Part shown: piece after piece, positions 9,929 to 56,427 of the stretch | Position numbering within the stretch: position 1 is the first letter of the stretch | Layout of the letters: each line of letters opens with the position of its first letter | From: Amphirosellinia nigrospora | Lineage: Eukaryota; Ascomycota; Sordariomycetes; Xylariales; Xylariaceae | DNA length: 64,000 bases | Reading direction: 5' to 3' | Assembly: GCA_004123355.1 (NCBI GenBank) | Contig: SCHM01000002.1 | Coordinates: forward strand, 5,925,569-5,989,568 | Position numbers and translations under genes: made by a program | The notes under the pieces: generated by a model | The model's input: the letters and a program-made list of their open reading frames with translations, nothing else | Database searches by the model: none | What the model was told of the DNA's origin: nothing

Positions 9929-11162
9929 ATGGGCTCCAGCGACAGGAAAAGAAGGAAAAGAAGAAAGACTTCCAGAAGCCCAAGTTGAAAGTCGGCAAGA
10001 CTAAACCGAAGGCTTCGAACTTCACCGACACTAGTTTTAAGTCCAAGTGTAGGAGGCACCTTTATGTAGTCTGTTTCAATTGATTACATCTGCTAAATAT
10101 GTCATGCAGCAATTGTCTTGCAGCAGCAGCTCTCTGAGATCGCGCCCGATGCTGTAGAGCGATTCAAACATCAGCTCTCTCTTACGAGCTCTCGAACCGA
10201 CACACAACGTCGAGATGCGCTGTCCTACCTGACGGGACAGCTTTCGACGAACCCACCCACGAATCCCGTGGGAACGTCCACATTACTGCAGAAGGTTCTG
10301 CCGTTGATGCCGGATTCTTCCAAATCCGTTCGTAGTCAACTTCTGAAACTTCTTCAACAGCTCCCCGCCGACGAGGTCCGGCCACATCTCCAGAAGGCTA
10401 TGTTATATATCCGGGGCGCCATGACCCACTTATCGCAAGATATCAAGGATGATGGGCTAAACTACTTGGAATGGATTCTCGATGCTGCGGGCGAAGACCT
10501 GGTCGCAAGTCCCGGCTGCTGGGTTAAGCCCCTAAAGGACTTCATGTCAGTGCTGGGATGGACCGTCACGACCGCGCCGTCAGCTGCTACGAAGGGCGGC
10601 TGGACCTCGGCGCCACGCACTACGTTCGGGTCCAAAAAGTTTGGGCACTCGTTCCCACGGCAGATGATGGTGCTAGCCAAATTCTTGGAGCTCGGGTTCA
10701 AGACGGAAGCCTCAATTCCCTGGACAGCGAACGGCTGGGTCAGTGGTATCAGCACGGTCCCCCGAGTGCCGGACCCGTTCGGCTATTTGGGCTCTTTAAA
10801 CCCCCCCGAGACGAGGACGGCGAGATATACCGCAATCGAGAGGATAGACAGGAGATATTCGCCAGAAGGTTCATGGATGCTGTCGAGGCCGGCGTCGAGA
10901 TGGCCAAGAAGGAAGGAGGGCTGCCGGGCGAGCAGCTTCTATGCTAGACCAGGCACTAAGAGATGGCATGGGTGATTATGAGCGCGCTTTACAAGTTGAT
11001 GATGATGAAAGCATGTGGGGGGTATATCATGTAGATATGAATATCCCACATGCAGGTCCCAGGTTCTATCAATGTTCACGTCGATCTAGAATCTCATATC
11101 TCTTAAATGACAGTAGGCCCCTCAGCTCTTATGTATATCCTACCACAACTGGTTCATACTGA
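9929..11162 (+). CDS. IPI1: pre-rRNA processing protein IPI1 (Rix1 complex)
   Basis: Ipi1 acts with Rix1 and Ipi3 in the nucleolus and nucleoplasm in ITS2 processing and 60S maturation. The N-terminus shows the family's Lys-rich start followed by KDFQKPKLKVGKTKPKASNF and TDTSFKSK. An intron (10049-10109) then leads into SIVLQQQLSEIAP and the helical-repeat region, including SKSVRSQLLKLLQQLP, YIRGAMTHLS and SVLGW. The C-terminal part reads GLFKPPRDEDGEIY and then LDQALRDGMGDYERAL. These segments lie in three different frames. Breaks fall near 9945 (the ATG at 9929 is out of frame with the Lys-rich segment), at the GGG run 10789-10791 (one more G restores the frame) and near 10940. The protein sequence is otherwise well preserved, so assembly indels are more likely than gene death. 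The exact 3' end is uncertain. Confidence 0.8.
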
Positions 11163-28459: not shown

Positions 28460-37813
<9,354 letters not shown>

Positions 37814-41290: not shown

Positions 41291-44010
41291 TCAGGCTAAT
41301 ACCACGGTCCTCCATTGTGGTTGAAGTTTCACCCATTCGTCGGGAAACACTACTCCTACGGCGAGACGGTTACAGACACCATCTTTCTCTTCCATTATCA
41401 TCACGAGAAGGCACAGTTCATTCAGGTGACGCGGGTCCAGCCTTGATAGCTCTCCTTTATCCCATTGCATCCATCTTTTCCCAGAACAGACACCAAGGAG
41501 TGCGACAAGACATTCTCTCCCCTTTTGGAACATATCAAAGGTCATTTGCGGCGCCATGGTCATAGTTATACCGACAGGGACATCGCCTTGGCTTTCAATG
41601 ATACAGCCACTGAGATGTCGTCGAGGAGGTATTTTGAACCACATATGCCCAAACGGCGTGACCTTTAAATACGCACAGGAAGTATTGAAGACAATTACTG
41701 TTTGGTTTCTCCTTTGCGAGCGAGGTGGCCTCGCTGGATAGATTTTCTAATTGTCGCCGAGTTTCAGGATCATTGATAGTCGTAGGCGGCCACCATCTAG
41801 TATCGGTATGCTCCTCTAAGTTCCGTAAAGCTGCGAGGGCTGTCTTATCCTCTGAAAGGTCATGGAGTCGGTTCGATATAGGAATGTCCGCGGTCGAAGG
41901 AGGCCAGGGGTGAGTAATATCACCACCTTGTGCTTTATTATGTGCCCAGTCCCAAGCTTCTTGTACAAGCTCGTCTAGCCTAACGACTTCTACCGTCATG
42001 GGATCATCTGTAATCGACGATGGCCACCACGAAGCTGTCGTCTCTTTGATTACCGTGAGTGCGACCCGTTTTTGCTCCACGAGGTAATCTTCTAGAGACT
42101 GATGCCGTTCCCTAATAGGTCTTATCCCTTCTTTGAGATCGGAGATATAGAAGTTCACAAAACTTGCTTTCACTTCTGTCACCATGGCGGCGAGATATGT
42201 ATCGTGTGCGATTGTCCAGTCTGTATCCCAGGTTGCCCTGCTGTCCCAAGATGCCCAGCTCCAGCTTGGAACATTACCAACAAACCGTCTTGTCCCCATG
42301 AAGCCAGGTTGGGGGATCCAGCGCAAAGATTGTGTGAAAAATTCCTCGGGATGACCCAGTAACATTGGTCGTTTAAGCTTGGTTTCTAATACATTGACTA
42401 TACCCGCGAATGCGCGCAAGACATCGTCGGGGAATGTGAGCTTTCTAGGACTGAAGAAGTTTATGACCTTCGAATAAGTAGCAAACGAGTCCAGACCAAA
42501 ATCCCAGGGGCGGGCGAGGAAACTCTCCATATCCCAGATTGCTGTCTTACTCCATACTGATTCGTCTTCACCCTCTGGCATTTCTTGCCATCTCTCCTGA
42601 GGACAATCGCCGTAGACGTGACCCGCATCGAAGTAGATCCTACGCTTTGACAACACACTCTCCTGAAAGGTCCAGGCTCTGTTATTCCACACTGATTCTG
42701 AAATGGCCAACTCAATGAGTGGGAGTCGAGCCTCGCCTATAGGGTTACGCATCATAGCCAATAAATCCCACTATAATAGTTGGAGTCAGTCGTCACGATT
42801 TCGAGTGTGATCTATATCAAAATGAAAGGATATGTGGGGGATATTTTTAATATTAGACTGGGCAGAAAATGATATTGAGCATCACTTACACCCCAATTTC
42901 GGAAACTCTGTTGACGCGGCCGGGAGGGGAGGCCTACGAGACCAGGGGTAGGGCCATCCCCAAGAGCGACAACTGTCAGAAACGCACGATCATATATCAC
43001 GCCCATAGCATCGATCTGCTCAGCCTTCAGTTTCAGGTCGTCTTGCACGATGCAGAAGCGGTCCACCCAGAGATATCGCTGCCCAATATCGACACACAAG
43101 TTGATAGCATCAGCAACCACTTCCGGTAGGATCGAGTCTCTCAGGCTGCCGGGTTCCCCTAGATCCTTGATGTTTTCGGAATAAAGTTGTAGACCCTGCT
43201 TTTCCGGCGAAGCCGACGCAGCGCTCCAGACATAACTCAGGGCGGTGTACTCGACCTGCGATTCCCGTGGCAGCAGCACCACTAGGCGCTCGCGGACGTC
43301 GATTAGCCGAAACTCTCGAGGCAGGGTGACGGAGGGCGGCGTCCACGAAGCGCGGCACTTCTCCCGTGCTCGTGAGCGCAGCGATGAAGCCATCTCGTGA
43401 TCTGACGAGTATCCATAACCCTCCTATCCCACGGGTGGACCCGTGAAAGATCGTAGCACCACTTCTCGTACCGGAGAATGAACTCGAGGATCCCGGGCTG
43501 ATACGACCACTCGTCTCCGCCCGTCGGCGCCGTCGCGATGCAGATGGCGAGCACGCACTTCTGCAACCAGGGCACCATGCCCTTCTCCACAGCCGTCTGC
43601 TCGTCACGGACATTCCACTGATGCCCACTCGGGTCAAGAATAAAGGGTCGCCAGACGGCGATCTTCGTCTCCTTCCCGTCTCCGTTCTCCCGTCTCGCCC
43701 TCTGGAGAGCGTCCCTGAGCGTCGAGCACATGATGCAGTCCCCGCCGCGGGCCGCGAAGTGCTCGTCCGAAAAGAAGGCGAGGTCTCTGAGCTCGCCGTA
43801 ATCGCCCTTTCGCGCCGGCGGCCAGTTCGGGTTGTGCTTATAACTGAACATCACGGGGTTCAGCGGCGCGTGGCTCGATGCCAGCTCTCGGCAGTAGTTG
43901 ACGTGCAGCAGGTCGTCCCAGTCTTGGCAGTCATCGCATAGTCTGGGGTTGACGCGGGGCTGCTGGCCTGCCTCCTTGGCTGAGCAGATTGTGCATTGTC
44001 TTGTTTTCAT
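41291..44010 (-). CDS. heterokaryon-incompatibility (HET) domain protein
   Basis: HET proteins mediate non-self recognition and programmed cell death after hyphal fusion. The N-terminal region is Cys-containing (CTICSAKEAG, LCDDCQDW, CIMCSTLRDAL). Then come FRLIDVRERLVVLLP and the three HET blocks: EYTALSYVWSAAS, RYLWVDRFCIVQDD and NNRAWTFQESVLSKRRIYF. An intron at 42771-42889 (GTAAGT donor, TATAG acceptor) separates blocks two and three in phase. The C-terminal half contains DVLRAFAGIVNVLE and PSWSWASWDS, usual in the family. Two frame breaks occur. At the CCC run 43363-43365 one more base restores HGEKCRASWTPPS, and near 41645 the last 110 residues continue in another frame. The usual Gly of SYxWG reads Ser and the Leu of WVDxLCI reads Phe, which may reflect divergence or weak decay. 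Confidence 0.82.
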
Positions 44011-46652
44011 GTTCCTCTTGTCCTCGTCAGTCTGGAGACGTGGTTACTGAAATGGGTATAATTCCTTAACTACATAGCTTTTGTTATTTACTGGATAGGG
44101 GACATGTCAAGTATTTACAGGCCGCGATTGGGTTCTGATCTGGGTTGCAGTCAAATCTGTTTTGGTTAGCGTTAAGAGAAGATCGCCGTAAATGGTTTCC
44201 CATTGGGCTCTATACAGATGGAGCTTAACTGGAAGTGGACATCTGCTGCAAGATACTTTCATTGGAAGGTGTTTTGACGTCAGTTGGAGATGTAAATAAC
44301 TGGTAGTTCTTCAAACTAATGCTATTACATTATTTTCAATCCATAAAATAACTAAGTACCTACAATGATAGCACAACGTTGCTTGTATTCGGTAGATATA
44401 TTCAGATACAATCAACTATATCGAAGCCGAGTTGTGAATTTGGCTTTGAGTTTCCTTTGATAAGATTGGCCTTAGTTGTGGTGTTGATGACTGTAATTTG
44501 AATTATATACCTCTTGTTAGACACATAACTTCGGCAATGAGGTATCAAGTCTTCCACACAGCAATGAAATCATATCGTAATTATATAAGAGGCGTCCATA
44601 AAGGTCATGACACCTCTAGAGATCCGCGTCGCCTTGGTTGATAATTTTGTTTATTAATTTTTGCCACGAAGCACGCACAGGCACAGAGACACAGAGACTC
44701 CTATATAAATAGGATCAGATAGCCTCCATGGGGATAGTTTTAGGGCCTCGGCAACAACAAGGGTTTATTGTCCATGTACCGGGCTCATGACAATTTCTGT
44801 CTTCAACTTGAACCACTACGAAGACATTCCCACAAAACTTTGATATATTCTCTACCCCTTTCCAAATTACTTCACTATAGTACGTGTTTCTATATTCTTT
44901 ATATAGTTCTTGGTTTTTACAACTATCTGTAGCTTAACATTCTCGTTTCTGGGAGCTCGCCCAGCTCAGTTCCCGTGACTTTTTGTGTGTAATGTTACTG
45001 CCAAATTCTCACAACTGCCTCGATAACAGGATTATTATGGAGATATACATACACCTTTGTCACCAAGACTGAGCCCAGGATACCTAACTATCGTGTCCTA
45101 GTGTAACCTTTGTACGATACATTTAGGAGTCCATCTTTGCACCGAATCTCCGAGACAATAAAAATAACGGGGCAAGTTATTGCGAAGCACGATCACTGAA
45201 TACGAGGCTGTCAAGATGTAAATGGATGAGAGATCTCCTACTTCAAGCGAGCTAAGAGACTTAGACGTTTCATGGGGCCCTTGTTTTCATCAAAGGTTAT
45301 TGTCATTTGTTCGTATAGGTAACTCCAGGTGCGCCTCGATATCAAAAAGGTTCCACTTTTGTAGTGTTGTGAGCCAGTTGCAATTCTGTTTTCGTAACAA
45401 ATAAATTGCTCTCACTCAATAGGTTGATTCTCCTGCCTAAGATCTGGCCCGGCTGCTTTTCTTACGTCCGTAAGGGATTTGCGAGTAATGAGATAGGCGC
45501 CCGTTGGCCAGAGTGGGCGCTTCATTGGTCAACCAACTCACTTGAACCGAGTTCGGATTCACGATTGTGGCAAAAGGTAGACAGTGCAAAAGGTACATCT
45601 GTGATCGACATCTATCCGCGGCGGGATCATAGCCGAGCTGACACGAGAGAGAGAGAATGTTCTCCACGATTTCACGCCACCGAATTTTCTTCCTCCTTCC
45701 TTGCTTGACTAGCCAGGTGTGCGCGTACCCGTGTGATTCGGTGGAATTTACTCACAACGCGTATCAGCACGTAATACAGAACCGCGCGGGCAATCCCTAG
45801 TGGCTGGGAGTCGGTGCGGCACGGGCCTGAGGCGAGGGATAAGCTAGTCGTGCAAGTCTTGACGGGGGAACAGGGGTTCCTCTCTCCCCTGAGTCATCAT
45901 CAAAGTTGTTTGCGAGTTTACCAGCAGCTGAAACTGCACAACTTGCTCTCTATTCGAGTATGAACTCGCACCATTAAGCGCCTCGTGATGCGTAAATGGC
46001 ACCACCTTCGCAAGCTGGACCGGTCCGAGTATGCCACAGGGGCTGAAGGCTACACCACACAAACACGGATGTTCTGCGTAGACATAGCGTGGCACACGAA
46101 AGTTTTTGGAGCCCTTGCCTCGCCAAGGAATGCCCAAGACAGACAAACATTAGGTTTGGCCAATGAAAGGGGTGTTATGACCATCTAGAGAGTGCTTCAC
46201 AGTATCATGGCGGCGCAGCAAAGCAAGGAATCCAACCAGTCGAATACAACGCATTAAAATATCTAACTGAACATCATAGCTAAATGAGTGCATGTAACTA
46301 CACAAGTGGACCAACCTGGTTCAAAACGTGTAGCCAAAGTTCTAGTTTCCAAACACATGCATGTACGTAATAAGTGTTTCCATGGCTTTGCCGTCTCGAA
46401 GTGTCCAAAAATAAACCAGGTGTATTTGTGTACTGTGTGCCACTCCATCTACGACCTCCGCTGGCGCTTTGGGTTCCGCTCGTAGTGTCTGGTCCAGTCA
46501 GCGACCTGCGTCACATCAAGAGACACCACCTTGGCGATATTGTCGAATATTTCGATGTCTCGATTAGTATTTACATCCAATATTCTTTTGATGATGGATG
46601 CTTTTTCAGACCTAGTATTAGAATTGATTAGCCTTGTGGATAATGCTCCGTG
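44011..46652. other. intergenic, no supported gene
   Basis: The first half (44050-45200) is AT-rich with no readable coding signal. The second half has short open frames on both strands without domains. A purine-rich GAGAGAGAGA patch lies near 45646. I see no mobile-element boundary. Confidence 0.45.
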
Positions 46653-49134
46653 TCAGAATGGGCACTTACGTGATTCTCTCCAATTTCCTCTTTGTATGTC
46701 TTGTGGCGCATTGGGGGGCTCATCCTCCTCCTCAGTGACGGGTGTCTCGTCATCTTCCTCAATGGAGGGTGCCTCGTCATCTTCCTCAATGGAGGGTGTC
46801 TCGTCATCTTCCTCAATGGAGGGTAGCTCGTCATCTTCCTCAATGGAGGGGAGCTCGTCATCTTCCTCAGTGACGAGCGTAGTATTCTCTTCAAAACCCT
46901 CGCGAACTTGGCAAAATAGCGATTCCAAGTATTCAGGGTAGTCCATCTTCCGGGAAAAGGATATACCGACTGAAAATGGTACCCATATCTCTGCTGCTTC
47001 TCCTAAGTCCGCAGCATATTGACTTCTTAGAGTCCGCAAGGCTTTTTTGAGGGACGACTCAAAGCCTGCTGCAATACACATCTGCGTAACGTTCAGGTAG
47101 AAGTCTGAAGTACGCATTGATACTCGCTGCGGCTTCGCGTGCCCGAAGGTAATGTATACGAGGCCTTCTGATGGAGATTCCTTAAGTCGACCATTTGGAT
47201 CGTCATGAGCTCCTGGTGTAAATGCGCGTGACCGGGGCGCCCGAGTAAAATCGAAGCTTTGGGCATCCTGACTTCCCTCACTTTGGCTCTCTATCGAACT
47301 TCCAGCATTGTCGTCTATTGTACTGTGATACTCGCGTGAGTTGGAGTCGACGTGATTAGAATCCTCCGTTGCACCATTACTAGCCGGTTCAAACTGGTTG
47401 TCAGGTGACCTGGGCGCAGAAGGGTCCAAGATGATCGTACTCAAATCGCTAGCCTCATTGTCGTATCCACTAGGCTCAATCGCCTCGTTCTCGGTAGTGG
47501 CCAAATGGGGATTGCCCAGACGAAGCAAGATCTTGTTAACAACAGTCTCCACTAGCTCCACAACTGGGCCGCCACCATCCAAGTTGACGGGTAATGGTGC
47601 TGCCCTTATCACCTCTCTAATTAAGCGGGTTTGCTCCTGTGCCATATTTGTAGCCGGGGACCAACGGGGATGGGTTTTGTGGTGGATTCTCGGGGGTAGA
47701 AAGGAAAGGGTGCTGGAGGCATACTTTGGCGGAAGGTCGGGATTGCGGATTTTCTTTAAGCATGAGGTCTATAAATTCCCACTCAGGTGTTTCTGAGTCT
47801 TCAGAATCTAAATGTACGTCAAGAACCATATACCATTGAGCGTCTCCAGGTTCTGTATGCTCCGGCCAGTCTGGAAGTCCGTAGATGAGTTCCACTGTTA
47901 GTATACCCATAGACCATATATCCACTTTGTTAGTATACCCACGGCGACTGAGGTCGACCTCAGGTGCCAGATACTGATTCGTGCCAAGAAAACTCCTGGG
48001 GGTGCATCCTGTAGGTGATGCATGGCCGAAGTCGGTGATCTTCAAGAATATGCCGCTGGAGTCGCGTTCATGTACTATGATGTTACCAGGCTTGATGTCC
48101 CGATGGGTAATCCCTTTACCGTGGAAATAGACCATGGCATCAAACAACTGGCTTAAGCCCATCTTTATCTCCTTATGACTGAGAGGCCAAATCAGTTGTA
48201 CTTCGTGGAGATCCGGCCCCCCTAATTCCATTTGTATCATTTGCTCTCCGCTATAAACGGCTTGGAAAATGTACCTGATGATATGTTTCTATAGTTTGGT
48301 TAGTTCGGCCTCATAGTCATAGAGTGATATCAACGGAAATACTTGCATGAACAAGTTGGCCACTGACTAGCGCCTCCCGGAAGCTGCTAGTATCCATCTT
48401 GTTGAACCGTTTTATCGCGCACAGCTGGCCAGTGGCTTTTTCCGTTGCCTCAAACACTCGAGCTTGGGATCCATGACCAATTTGCTTCCCGATGACAAAA
48501 TCAGTCTCCAATGTTCGTCTCGCCGTCTTGTTACCTATAGCTAGTCCATGGATACTGGGGGGTTGCACTTCAACTCTGGCATAAATGCTGCCAAATTTTC
48601 GAGAAATGCGGCCCGATGGTTGTCGTGGTCAGGGACTCGAATTTGAATTTTGCAGAAGTCAAGGTCGACGTTTACGGATTGTTTCTCCTTCAGGAATATT
48701 TTTCCTTCTTTAGCGAGTATGCGACGACGTAACGATGTTGTTAGCTTGGTGCCCTTTGCACTCAGATTCATCAGAATCAATACTCCTGTCTTCCAGTTCG
48801 GCCAGATGCTGAACTGCTTTCTGCTGACCCGCCCGTCTGTATACGGACCAAGCAGGATATCGCAAATATTGGTCTCGCGGCCAAAAACGAAGCCACTCTC
48901 GGGGCTATTCGGCGTATGGATATCATCCATGGTGATCCGCAGGAATCTCTGTGTTCCAGATTGGGGGGCTTGGGTGGGACGAGATTGGTTCTTGAGGCAA
49001 CCATCGGTTGCGTTGTCTCGTTCCTCATGGCAGATGAATGCTTTGTTGAGATCGCCGCCAGTGATATTTTGGTTCTCTGAGTGGACCGTAAAGAGTGTCT
49101 TGGCTGAGATGGCATCGTCATCCATGGTTGGCAT
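46653..49134 (-). CDS. FHA-domain Ser/Thr kinase reading into a KilA-N/APSES-like domain and acidic repeat tail
   Basis: A phosphothreonine-reading kinase of Rad53/Chk2-like layout with an unusual extension. The FHA part shows FVFGRETNICDILLGPYTDG, VSRKQFSIWP (Gln where His is usual) and NLSAKGTKL. The kinase has a glycine loop IGHGSQARV, Lys in CAIKRF, HRDIKPGNIIV, DFGHAS and GTNQYLAPE, so the catalytic residues are present. The following frame (47645-46653) carries RTSDFYLNVTQMCIAAGF, then AEIWVPFSVGISFSRKM and YLESLF, which fits the KilA-N/APSES DNA-binding fold. It ends in tandem SIEEDDE(L/T/A)P units. Frame breaks occur at the six-G run 48557-48562 (one more G joins FHA to kinase) and near 47640 (kinase to KilA-N). 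The kinase exon junction near 48300 is not resolved. The start at 49134 is favoured, but 49125 or 49209 are possible. The kinase and KilA-N parts could instead be two adjacent genes. Confidence 0.75.
46723..46876 (-). repeat. coding minisatellite, 27-bp unit, five to six copies
   Basis: Near-identical 27-base units encode nine-residue blocks of the type SIEEDDELP, SIEEDDETP and SIEEDDEAP. The outer copies begin VTEEDDE. Differences between copies are few and mostly change one residue. The tract lies at the C-terminus of the KilA-N-bearing frame. Confidence 0.9.
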
Positions 49135-49437: not shown

Positions 49438-49671
49438 CGACCTGGCCACCTGATAGGCGTGGTGCGTGTGTAACGCCCCTCATCCCTTTCTTCCACACCG
49501 ACAAGAATTCGAAGCCGGGCCAGGCAAACAAACAAACAACCTCCTCCCACGCGGATCTTGACATCACACAACGCATGACTTTGGCTTCTACTACCTTGTT
49601 TTGCCCATCGACAATCTCACGAGCGTTTTGGAGCTTTGAAACACCACTCGCTCCTTTTTCACCCGCTGGCT

Positions 49672-49702
49672 GCACCACACCACACCACACCACACCAGAA
49701 CA
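49672..49702. repeat. CACAC pentanucleotide microsatellite
   Basis: Five CACAC-type units lie about 75 bases upstream of the ATG at 49777, probably in the leader of the four-repeat gene. Confidence 0.8.
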
Positions 49703-49776
49703 CGCGAAACCGTCAGCCGCCTGCGAGCCCCCCAAATTCCTCTCTGAACCCGCGGGCCATCGCTTCACCAGTCACC

Positions 49777-52154
49777 ATGGACGAGTCTAACTCCGTGCAG
49801 TCTGTTACGGAAGAGAACCTGGCCATGCTGCAGTTTATCCAGGCGCAAAAAACCCCCACAGCATCGTTAGCCACATCGGACGATTTACCTATTGATGCGC
49901 TGGACCGAGCAAAGGTTCTGATCTATCGATTCCTATGGAGACTCAGGACTTATGGAGCTGAAGGGGACCGGATTCGCGATGAAGTAGACGTTTACCTGGA
50001 TGAGAAACGAGTTGTCCACTATCGAGGAAATTCAGTCCCAGCACCTGACCTCGAAGATTCTAACTTTTGGGAAGCCAAAGTATTATATCTCGAGCAGAAA
50101 TATGGACGCCACCTCAAGCTCCGACAAGAGAGACGCCTTATCTATCACACAATGAAAAGACTTCGTGATCTTGGGACGGACGGCCAGAAGGTCCTCGATG
50201 AATGTGAACTCGACTTTGCTGGCACGGAAGACGTCCGGTATCGCGGCGGTGATCCCGAACCCGATCTCGAAGATCTCACTTACTGGAGGGCTCAATACAA
50301 ATTTCTATCCTCTAAATATGACGTGTTATACGAGACGCCTTACCCTCCGACCGAGATGTCGGCCGAATACTTTGTTGACCTTGCGTCGCTGCCGCCGTCG
50401 CCGCGGAGAGTCCTTCGAGAAGACAATCCCGAAGACTTGAAGTGGATCTGGGCCAAAATGAAGAGAGATATTCGGGCGTGGGTCGACGGACTACATGGAG
50501 GTAAAGAATCCGCATGGAATAGAATCGCAGTGGGTGCTAACATGGAATAGAGGTCAGCTCATCAGGACCACGAGGCCCGATACTGCATTACCCGTCCGAA
50601 AATACTGCCGCGAATATTTCCGAAGACACAAATAGTTACCAATTTGAAGAGTACTTTAGATGGCATGAGGCGTACAGGGGTGTCTACGAAAGGATGGCTG
50701 CGCTTTGGAAACTTGGAGGCGAAGCTCGCGAAACGGTCAAAAACGACGAACTTCGTATCATGGGCCGTCATGACGTGCGGTATAGGCGAAGTAGAGGTCC
50801 AAAGCCGGACCTGAAAAATCCAACTTACTGGGAGGCTAAATGGGAATACTTTACCGGGAAATATATCTCCTTCCTTCGAGATATGCGTATGGCCTAAGTC
50901 CTTTCTCTTTGTATTCGAAGCAACGAAAGACAGCTACTGATATATACCAGAAGACAGCTCTAAAGTACTTGAAGAATTAGCCCTATATCCGTATGAGATA
51001 CCCGTTCCTAGTGCGGCATCGTCCGTTCTCTCTCCCACATCGAGCTCGGTGTCAAGTCTTCAGCCAACTGCAGAGTCAATCCGGGTTCAGAAGGTGAAAG
51101 AAGCGAAAGAACATTTATATCTCCTCCTCACTACAGATTTCTTCCAAAACGAAGGTCGGAAAATCCTTGACGATGACGATGTGTATGTTTCAGGCCTAGG
51201 TGAGGTTCGTTATAGGCATACGGTTGGACCAGAGCCGAACCTCCGGGATCCCCAGTTTTGGCTGGAAAAGATTAATTATTTCCTTAGCAGCCACCATGCA
51301 TCTTTCCCAGATGGCGGTAAGTCCCTCGCATTCACGAGATTACGAACGGCCACTAACAAGGAATAGCACTAGTTAGCAGTGGCCCATATACTCGGCCACC
51401 AATCTCGCAGGGTTGGACCTCCCGGTACTTAGAGCGATCCTCCAATGAAAGTACAATTCGTACAATTCTCGGTCAACAACGAGACCCAACTGTGCCAGTG
51501 ACGGACCCTGCAGATAAAGAGAATTGTGCGCCTTGTTCGGGGTTAGCCACCACGCAACCCATGCAATTACCGAGTGCGCCCAAGAGAAAGAGGGCTGGTT
51601 TCTTGGATGATACAGACGAAGTCGAGGACCAGCTATCACGTCGTATAAAAAGGGGCAGGCTAGAAGCGGGACAAGCAAGCACGGCTGGTGCTACAGTTAT
51701 GGGCAGTTCGTCTGGAGCAGCGCCGTTACCGAAAACATCGACTGGAGACGCTATTGTGCGGCAACCACGTGCCTCGCGTCGAGCACTCAACCATGGGGTA
51801 GGTCAATCCTCAACAATGGCACCCATAGTGATCGAGGGGCCTGAGACCAGGGCCACGCAGACGCCGCCCCAACGCCGCAAGAGGCAACGCAAGACGTACG
51901 AGAAGGAGAGGACTAGTCGGAGACTCGCAGGACAGTCGCCCGAGTTCGGGTTGTTGCCAGAACGAGGCGAAGAACCCCAGCCCTATGAGTCGTTATCGCG
52001 GCGGGCCGCAAATACAGGCGAGACCAAGGGTCTAAAGACTCGCAGCGGTCGGATATCGAAGAAACCAGCAGCGGCCAAAAGCACGAGTTCTCGAGCGACT
52101 CCAAAGCCTGCTGAAGAAAGAGCGAGCTGCCAGAGGAGGACAAAACGTAATTGA
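49777..52154 (+). CDS. 737-residue protein with four copies of an unrecognised ~70-residue repeat and a basic tail
   Basis: Family not recognised. The exons 49777-50500, 50551-50886, 50951-51316 and 51367-52154 join in phase with no frame break, giving 737 residues. Introns are 50-64 bases with canonical ends, and the first has a GCTAAC branch. The ATG at 49777 has a strong context (GTCACCATGG). Four repeats lie at about residues 44-112, 119-184, 280-350 and 402-470. Each has a helical first part, then an (R/H)YR motif and a P-x-P-(D/N)-L block followed by aromatic-Trp: PAPDLEDSNFWEAK, PEPDLEDLTYWRAQ, PKPDLKNPTYWEAK and PEPNLRDPQFWLEK. Most copies end in (Y/F)L-x2-KY-like words. The region 476-737 is basic with likely nuclear signals (PKRKRAG, RRKRQRKTYEKER, SGRISKKPAAAK). 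It is probably nuclear. It is divergent from the FHA-kinase gene. There is no membrane segment or signal peptide. Confidence 0.85.
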
Positions 52155-55057: not shown

Positions 55058-56427
55058 ATGGCCGAATCACGCCTTTTCAAGCCGTTGATCATAGGGAATG
55101 TTGAAGTGAAGCATCGGGTCGGAAGTAAGCAATTCTCGGGACCATTTTCGTCCTATCTTGGCAATTTTTAGAGCCCGGTATAGTTGGGGGAGAGGGTCGA
55201 GAAATTTCTAACACCCTTATAATCACACTCCATACAGCGATAGCTAACTCTGAGTGTTGCAGTGGCTCCGCTCACTCGCCGTCGGGCGACCGTAGATCGT
55301 GTGCCGACGCCTATGATGAGCGAATACTATGGCCAACGTGCCTCTGTGCCTGGTACTCTGATCATTACCGAAGGGACTCTGATCTCCCCGTCCGCTTGTG
55401 GAGGATACGAACAGGTACCTGGGATTTGGAATAAAGATCAGATTTCTGCCTGGAGAACCATCACCGACGAAGTCCACCGCAAAGGCTGCTTCATATTCTG
55501 TCAGCTATTTGCAATGGGTCGCACTGCAACTGTTGAAGTGGCCCAAAAGGAGGGAGTCAGCATCGTGGGGCCGAGTGCCATCCCAATCGAGGAGGGCGCT
55601 GCGATGCCACGTCCTATGACCATCGAAGAGATCCGGCAATCGGTTCAAGACTTCGTGACTGCCTCGGAGAATGCCATCAGTGCAGGATTCGACGGCGTCG
55701 AACTACACGGAGCTAACGGCTACCTCGCTGATCAGTTCATCCAAGACACTAGTAATCAGCGTGACGATGACTACGGCGGGAGCGTAGAGAATAGGTCTCG
55801 CTTTATCGACGATATGATGAAGGCTGTCGTCAAAGCTATCGGCCCCGAACGTGTCGGGCTTCGTCTTAGTCCTTGGAGCCCCTATCAGGGCATGAGGATG
55901 GAGAATCCAATTCCACAATTTGCGGATGTTATCAACAAAGCCGGCCGGTTAAACCTAGCATACCTTCATTTGATCGAGTCAAGGGTGTCTGGCGCCGCCG
56001 ACCATGATGCCCATGACCGGCTAGACTTTGCTTACAAGCTCTGGGATGGACCTCTGCTTGTTGCTGGGGTTATAAGCCGGAAAATGCGCGAAGGCTTGTT
56101 GATGAAGAATATCCCGACAAGGACATTGTCGTTGTGTTCGGGAGAGACTTTATCTCAAACCCGGTGAGTCATTCTCGGCATCATTTTCTTCTTATCTTGG
56201 TGACTTTTAGAACTCGAGATTTCCCGTTTTGGGATAAGAGAGTGTCTAGAAATTAAACCAGCTCCATCTGGCGGAAACTAACTTCTGTATTGCAGGATCT
56301 GGTATTCCGGGTTCGTGAGGGCCTCGTGTTTAGTGCGTATAATCGCGACACTTTCTATACAATCGACTCGGTTGGTTACGTGGACTACCCGTTTAGCGTG
56401 GAATATTTGGTGAGTGAGAAAGCCTAG
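55058..56427 (+). CDS. Old Yellow Enzyme-type NADH:flavin oxidoreductase
   Basis: An FMN-dependent ene-reductase of the OYE family, likely cytosolic, about 366 residues. Exon 1 (55058-55124) codes MAESRLFKPLIIGNVEVKHR. The intron 55125-55262 splits the Met codon of GMAPLTRRRA. Active-site words are present: APLTR, ELHGANGYLADQFIQD (His, Asn and Tyr of the substrate and catalytic site) and DDDYGGSVENRSRF. After the GGGG run at 56066-56069 one base is missing. With it the frame continues AGGYKPENARRLVDEEYPDK and IVVVFGRDFISNP, the usual phosphate-binding end. Exon 3 (56296-56427) codes DLVFRVREGL and VGYVDYPFSVEYL. Members reduce activated C=C bonds, and some act in secondary metabolism, but no cluster backbone gene lies nearby. 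Confidence 0.9.

Follow-up and report, generated by a model that had tools for sequence, protein, structure and literature searches.

We describe a locus in which an FHA-like block, a Ser/Thr kinase, a KilA-N/APSES-like block and a run of acidic repeats follow one another on the minus strand, from about 49134 to 46450 of the DNA analysed here (hereafter the window, a stretch of 64,000 nucleotides at C4:5925569-5989568 of a 48.1-Mb genome in 11 contigs). With a probability of roughly 0.6, these blocks would make up a single gene, whose product would comprise an FHA-like domain, an active-looking kinase, a linker, a KilA-N-like domain and an acidic tail, in a CHK2/Rad53-type arrangement with docking side domains. 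The combination of FHA, kinase and KilA-N domains is unusual.

Layout of the locus

All features of the locus lie on the minus strand. The 5' coding block (48591-49134) contains the FHA-like domain in an open frame with candidate start codons at 49134 and 49125, and the part of it matched by Pfam spans 48739-48888. Three-frame translation places a frame break (48541-48590) between this block and the kinase N-lobe (48347-48540), which carries the glycine loop and the AIK lysine and is separated by a probable 58-nt GC-AG intron (48289-48346) from the C-lobe (47620-48288). A stop codon closes the kinase frame at 47617. By then the KilA-N frame has been open since about 47768; the second break falls somewhere within the stretch that is open in both frames (47617-47768). 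The KilA-N/APSES-like domain occupies 46914-47120, and a 27-bp minisatellite of 5.8 copies (46713-46869) translates into acidic EEDDE repeats. Another probable 58-nt intron, of GT-AG type (46612-46669; GTAAGT ... TAG), may lead into a possible last exon (46449-46611), a weak candidate seen as an open frame with a basic KRQRR stretch at its end; the in-phase frame after this intron is short, and the longer open frame is one base off. The original prediction had one frame break, between kinase and KilA-N, whereas we find several discontinuities: two breaks for which we see no convincing intron (48590-48541 and within 47768-47617) and the two probable introns (48346-48289 and 46669-46612).

We read 48346-48289 as a GC-AG intron because its removal brings the two kinase lobes into one frame at normal spacing; its GCAAGT donor, CTAAC branch site and TAG acceptor were assigned by hand from the sequence and frame arithmetic. 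With a plain GT-AG intron of 54 nt (48342-48289) the frame would be off by one base, which is why we prefer the GC-AG reading; an assembly indel combined with GT-AG splicing from 48342 could serve as an alternative to it. At the break between the FHA-like block and the N-lobe, an intron was rejected by eye, as no donor and acceptor lie at a plausible spacing. A blastn alignment with the decayed copy described below puts a one-base gap at this break, but it is one of four gaps and thus a weak indication.

The four blocks are stop-free over 222 (FHA-like), 83 (N-lobe), 223 (C-lobe) and 371 codons (KilA-N frame), the last consisting of the KilA-N ORF (P0001) and 41 codons upstream of it. When the region was shuffled 300 times by mononucleotide, no open block exceeded 219 codons, against the 371 of the KilA-N frame, which indicates that this frame is coding now or was until very recently.

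Beside the kinase gene lies a HET-domain gene spread across several frames (41598-44010; HET, 77.8 bits at 42815-43393). Two adjacent ORFs at 49636-51366 share between them three repeats of a roughly 70-residue module in which 11 columns are invariant; Pfam returned no match for them at E 0.01. The window is fungal, and its introns, the HET-domain gene and an IPI1 gene that lies close to the one in structure 8pv4 suggest a filamentous ascomycete.

The kinase domain

The central block is, judged by its sequence, certainly a Ser/Thr protein kinase. The glycine loop, the AIK lysine, HRDIKPGN, DFG and APE are all present, and the Pfam Pkinase profile (PF00069) matches the C-lobe with 123 bits over profile positions 59-263 and the N-lobe with 23.6 bits over positions 2-41, the latter alone being below the cut-off of 31.7. 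The kinase sequence does not appear to be clearly nearest to CHK2/Rad53: among the best 60 of 2194 PDB sequences, CHK2 chains (1.4e-19) come behind CaMK2, Aurora A, DCLK1 and PAK5, and the best match within the genome is a locus that we take to be of Ste20 type.

The FHA-like domain

Pfam is less generous to the two side domains than to the kinase, which is clearly positive; the FHA and KilA-N domains of the original prediction both remain below their cut-offs. For the trimmed FHA domain the shortfall is small (PF00498, 19.7 bits, E 0.0011, just under the cut-off of 20.7). The whole FHA ORF (P0002) had no FHA match in Pfam, and the window's block is absent from the seven matches listed by a genome-wide search for the FHA family. 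A two-sequence profile of the window's FHA block and the decayed copy on contig C1 (profile A3) was compared with the PDB at E up to 10, and all eight matches were chains that bear an FHA domain, six from RAD53 (two of them chimaeras with DBF4) and two from TIFA, with E-values of 0.01 for the best TIFA chain and 0.11 to 1 for the RAD53 chains. The raw FHA ORF, as a single sequence, found no FHA chain in the PDB and two chance matches. Among the ORFs of the genome loci compared, the block resembles the FHA-kinase locus L050 (E 5.7e-4). With the FHA piece as query, 51 stretches of bacterial and archaeal contigs matched and none was confirmed, and PHROGs gave no family.

The FHA motif is partly retained, with GR and S kept, the His of SxxH changed to Gln and the Asn of NGT changed to Lys. 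The original prediction had called the FHA and kinase motifs complete; this is true of the kinase (HRDIKPGN, DFG, APE and the catalytic Lys) but not of the FHA, in which the His and the Asn are replaced. In Rad53 FHA1, R70, S85, N86 and T106 grip the phosphothreonine phosphate, while N107 holds the peptide backbone (PMC5041073). In the profile A3 alignment the window keeps R70 and S85, whereas N86, T106 and N107 are replaced by R, A and K, so that two of the five contacts are retained. We consider this an FHA-like domain that is real but divergent.

The KilA-N/APSES-like domain

The signature that had been predicted for the frame next to the kinase, N-x-T-Q-x3-A-A-G together with WVPF-x-x-G, is indeed present, with N-V-T-Q in its first part, in a block at about 47120-46914. 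In Pfam, KilA-N (PF04383) reaches 15.3 bits on the trimmed block, against a cut-off of 23.8, and 12.5 bits with the ORF; Bromo_TP outscores it on the trimmed block (18.0 versus 15.3 bits), and genome-wide PF04383 searches at E 0.001 and E 10 list the window's domain in neither case. More can be seen with an HMM built from three APSES/KilA-N domains that Pfam recognises in this genome (L001-L003). It scores the trimmed block at 16.4 bits, with an alignment that runs across positions 12-86 of 88, and none of 20000 shuffled sequences (16106 of which returned a score) attained this value. When 4479 ORFs were ranked with the same HMM (3335 scored; the set was drawn from overlapping loci and so contains duplicates), only the three training domains stood above the window's ORF, which at full length has 11.7 bits, the next unrelated ORF having 6.9. 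The block thus bears a whole-domain similarity to APSES domains that is above chance. Against the assignment, alignment to APSES with hhalign recovers the expected register with E 0.011 but gives a probability of 3.7 percent. Of the training proteins, the KilA-N protein of L003, which we take to resemble Bqt4, exceeds the Pfam cut-off at 25.5 bits.

Also against the assignment, a profile of the KilA-N piece (A1) found no APSES chain in the PDB and one unrelated chain, and the raw KilA-N ORF found no match there. AlphaFold2, run on single sequences without an alignment, gave uninformative models (pLDDT 41.5 for the KilA-N block, and 31.5); the low-confidence model of the KilA-N piece has strands, two helices, two strands and a helix, an order compatible with a winged helix to which we give no weight. 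Searches with the KilA-N piece matched a pattern in one stretch of the viral contigs, with none confirmed, and found one weak family of unknown function in PHROGs.

The APSES domain of PCG2 reads DNA by a QXGXGXXQ wing motif (PMC4333399). L001 and L002 carry this motif; L003 and the window lack it. The 87-residue KilA-N block has a net charge of +1, compared with +3, +3 and -5 for the three yardstick domains.

A decayed copy on contig C1

Besides itself, each of the ORFs P0001 and P0002 has at least one match in the genome with an E-value no higher than 0.001, these counts being lower bounds since the whole-genome search scores only its best candidates, and both matches are on contig C1. They lie in the interval C1:7402000-7409000 (L008), on the same strand and 1.9 kb apart, with FHA before KilA-N, and are 72% and 86% identical to the window at the DNA level. 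A search for the kinase between the two pieces found no match, and part of the intervening DNA recurs in the genome (29 matches, its own included). The frame breaks and stops within the pieces mark the C1 copy as a relic. Against the domain assignments, the APSES HMM gives its KilA-N piece -1.5 bits (rank 1333 of 3335), and Pfam has no match for that piece and one unrelated sub-threshold match for the FHA piece.

Compared with the relic over ungapped blocks, 48 codons of KilA-N give a dN/dS of 0.47, and 63 codons of FHA give 1.16. The former lends weak support to a past constraint on the KilA-N block, and the latter gives no support for constraint on the FHA block. The relic shows the FHA and KilA-N pieces travelling as one unit, an association that is compatible also with two co-duplicated neighbours. 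As far as our searches reach, the KilA-N-like tail would be confined in this genome to the window gene and its relic.

Frame breaks and the number of genes

Other genes in the window help in reading the breaks. IPI1 is essential, and as a conserved ribosome-assembly gene it is unlikely to be dead. In the window a first piece of it (10109-10783) covers residues 43-265 of chain 8pv4_CS, from a Chaetomium structure, and a piece in the next frame (10771-10941) takes up that chain at residue 265 and follows it to residue 316, with the break at about 10777-10780. Because the two alignments join at a single residue, they leave no space for an intron, and an assembly indel is the simplest cause. A weaker control is an ARG6-type gene (29494-31501), in which Pfam places AA_kinase and NAT, followed by a semialdehyde dehydrogenase in an overlapping frame. 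The apparent break is at about 30050, in what is a single polypeptide in fungal ARG6. An old-yellow-enzyme-type gene (55262-56163) also seems, by eye, to have a frame break at about 56068, and its short second piece found nothing in the PDB at E 0.01 and only a chance match in Pfam. The best solved relative of this gene is chanoclavine-I aldehyde reductase (4qnw, 7.9e-81). Assembly indels would be the simplest cause of the breaks in the kinase gene as well, IPI1 being the only firm control. Because IPI1 is broken in the same way, little can be concluded from the breaks of the kinase gene as to whether there is one gene or two, or a decaying one.

If the breaks are real mutations, the locus would be a decaying gene, with the C1 copy further along the same path. 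We consider such decay unlikely, though the two frame breaks that lack convincing introns, the state of the sole relative found in the genome, a relic, and the dN/dS of 1.16 for the FHA block all speak for it. A pseudogene sits poorly with the intact catalytic motifs of the kinase and with four blocks that remain stop-free over the lengths given above, and the same kind of break in IPI1, and apparently in ARG6, fits assembly indels. A two-gene reading would end an FHA-kinase at 47617 and begin a KilA-N-like gene from the ATG at 47645. It takes the sequence literally, with the stop where it stands and the start codon in the next frame, and adjacent genes duplicated together would yield the same linkage on C1. 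Yet the first frame would then contain the start of the second gene, with no space between them for promoter and terminator; the downstream frame runs open from about 47768, well ahead of the ATG; and the C1 copy preserves the order of the FHA and KilA-N pieces. We regard a pair of genes as very improbable. A scan of the junction for bacterial-type promoters and terminators returned none of either, with bacterial models that are not meaningful for a fungus.

We favor a single gene because the break in the kinase gene is of the kind seen in IPI1 and because the C1 relic keeps FHA and KilA-N together. The single transcription unit of the original prediction is, on these two grounds, the likeliest reading, while a single polypeptide is a further step that we infer.

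Relation to known systems

Like CHK2, Rad53 and Cds1, the window gene would place an FHA domain ahead of a Ser/Thr kinase whose catalytic motifs are all present. The order of the two parts agrees, and the frame break at 48590-48541 interrupts their continuity. It differs from them in its C-terminal KilA-N-like domain, in retaining only two of the five Rad53 FHA1 contacts and in a kinase that is not clearly closest to theirs. Two of the seven FHA matches that Pfam gives in the genome are directly upstream of kinase matches (L049 and L050), and among the ORFs of these two 7-kb loci none stands out with the APSES HMM. With the APSES domains of SBF-type factors (Mbp1, Swi4, PCG2) the window shares an alignable N-x-T-Q region and W-V-P wing end, over profile positions 12-86 of 88, but its domain is below the Pfam cut-off, lacks QXGXGXXQ and is C-terminal to a kinase. 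Swi6 is not known to be a kinase. Its N-terminal domain, which we liken to that of the window by description, has an APSES-type fold with a shorter loop and is said to be unable to bind DNA (PMC4333399).

Fusions of a kinase to a transcription-factor domain have some precedent. In the accessible text of a fungal kinome survey, Fungal_trans is among the very rare accessory domains of kinases, and neither KilA-N nor APSES is named in the main text as far as it was available (PMC2838846). The Fungal_trans-kinase fusion, likened here by description, also joins a kinase to a transcription-factor domain, but one of another family. The Fusarium kinome includes many unclassified kinases, and KilA-N is not named in the sections that were accessible (PMC6001611). 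A discussion of SBF/APSES evolution, again in its available part, treats fungal KilA-N/APSES domains as parts of transcription factors, without kinase fusion (PMC4862756). Within the part of the open-access literature that was covered, we found nothing that pairs KilA-N or APSES with FHA, and nothing that pairs KilA-N with a kinase domain in fungi or Ascomycota; in the portions of text available, KilA-N and Rad53 co-occur only as separate mentions. Kinases of the Pezizomycotina with the same architecture, combining FHA with APSES/KilA-N domains, are probably represented in public protein databases.

Possible function

Kinase activity, nuclear location and docking by the side domains are what we would infer for the product of a single gene. 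The N-terminal FHA-like domain would dock the kinase to partners, the C-terminal KilA-N-like domain would retain it in the nucleus or tie it to partners bound to chromatin, and location would in turn set the choice of substrate. Both side domains look like docking modules, and it is doubtful that they bind their classical ligands. Most residues that bind phosphothreonine or DNA in the known relatives are lost, which makes protein docking likelier than sequence-specific DNA binding. Direct DNA binding by the KilA-N-like domain is possible but less likely than protein docking. The direct link from phosphothreonine to DNA that had been proposed for this gene is accordingly weak, with three of the five FHA contacts changed and QXGXGXXQ absent.

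A narrower version of the one-gene reading, compatible with it, holds that the KilA-N-like domain binds protein and not DNA, as reported for the N-terminal domain of Swi6, and to this we give slightly less than an even chance. It would account for a wing motif that is absent here and present in two of the genome's three APSES/KilA-N domains, and the Swi6 domain, with its shorter loop, offers a precedent (PMC4333399). However, QXGXGXXQ is described for the MBP1 branch, and other KilA-N domains may bind DNA in a different way; the slightly positive charge of the block (+1) also tells against a purely protein-binding role. A broader proposal would be that a lineage-specific branch of checkpoint-type kinases gained an APSES/KilA-N domain, and that one protein couples phosphopeptide docking and kinase activity to a chromatin tether, aiming phosphorylation at DNA sites or at complexes of APSES-type factors. 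This we hold to be quite improbable.

In the prevailing view, checkpoint kinases come to chromatin through their partners. If our reading is true, a kinase with FHA-like and KilA-N-like domains would be a shortcut from phosphorylation signalling to DNA-associated factors, and the window gene would offer a simple system for how such domains lose or change their ligands. If the KilA-N-like domain does dock to protein, it would be one more case, beside Swi6, of an APSES-type fold turned adaptor.
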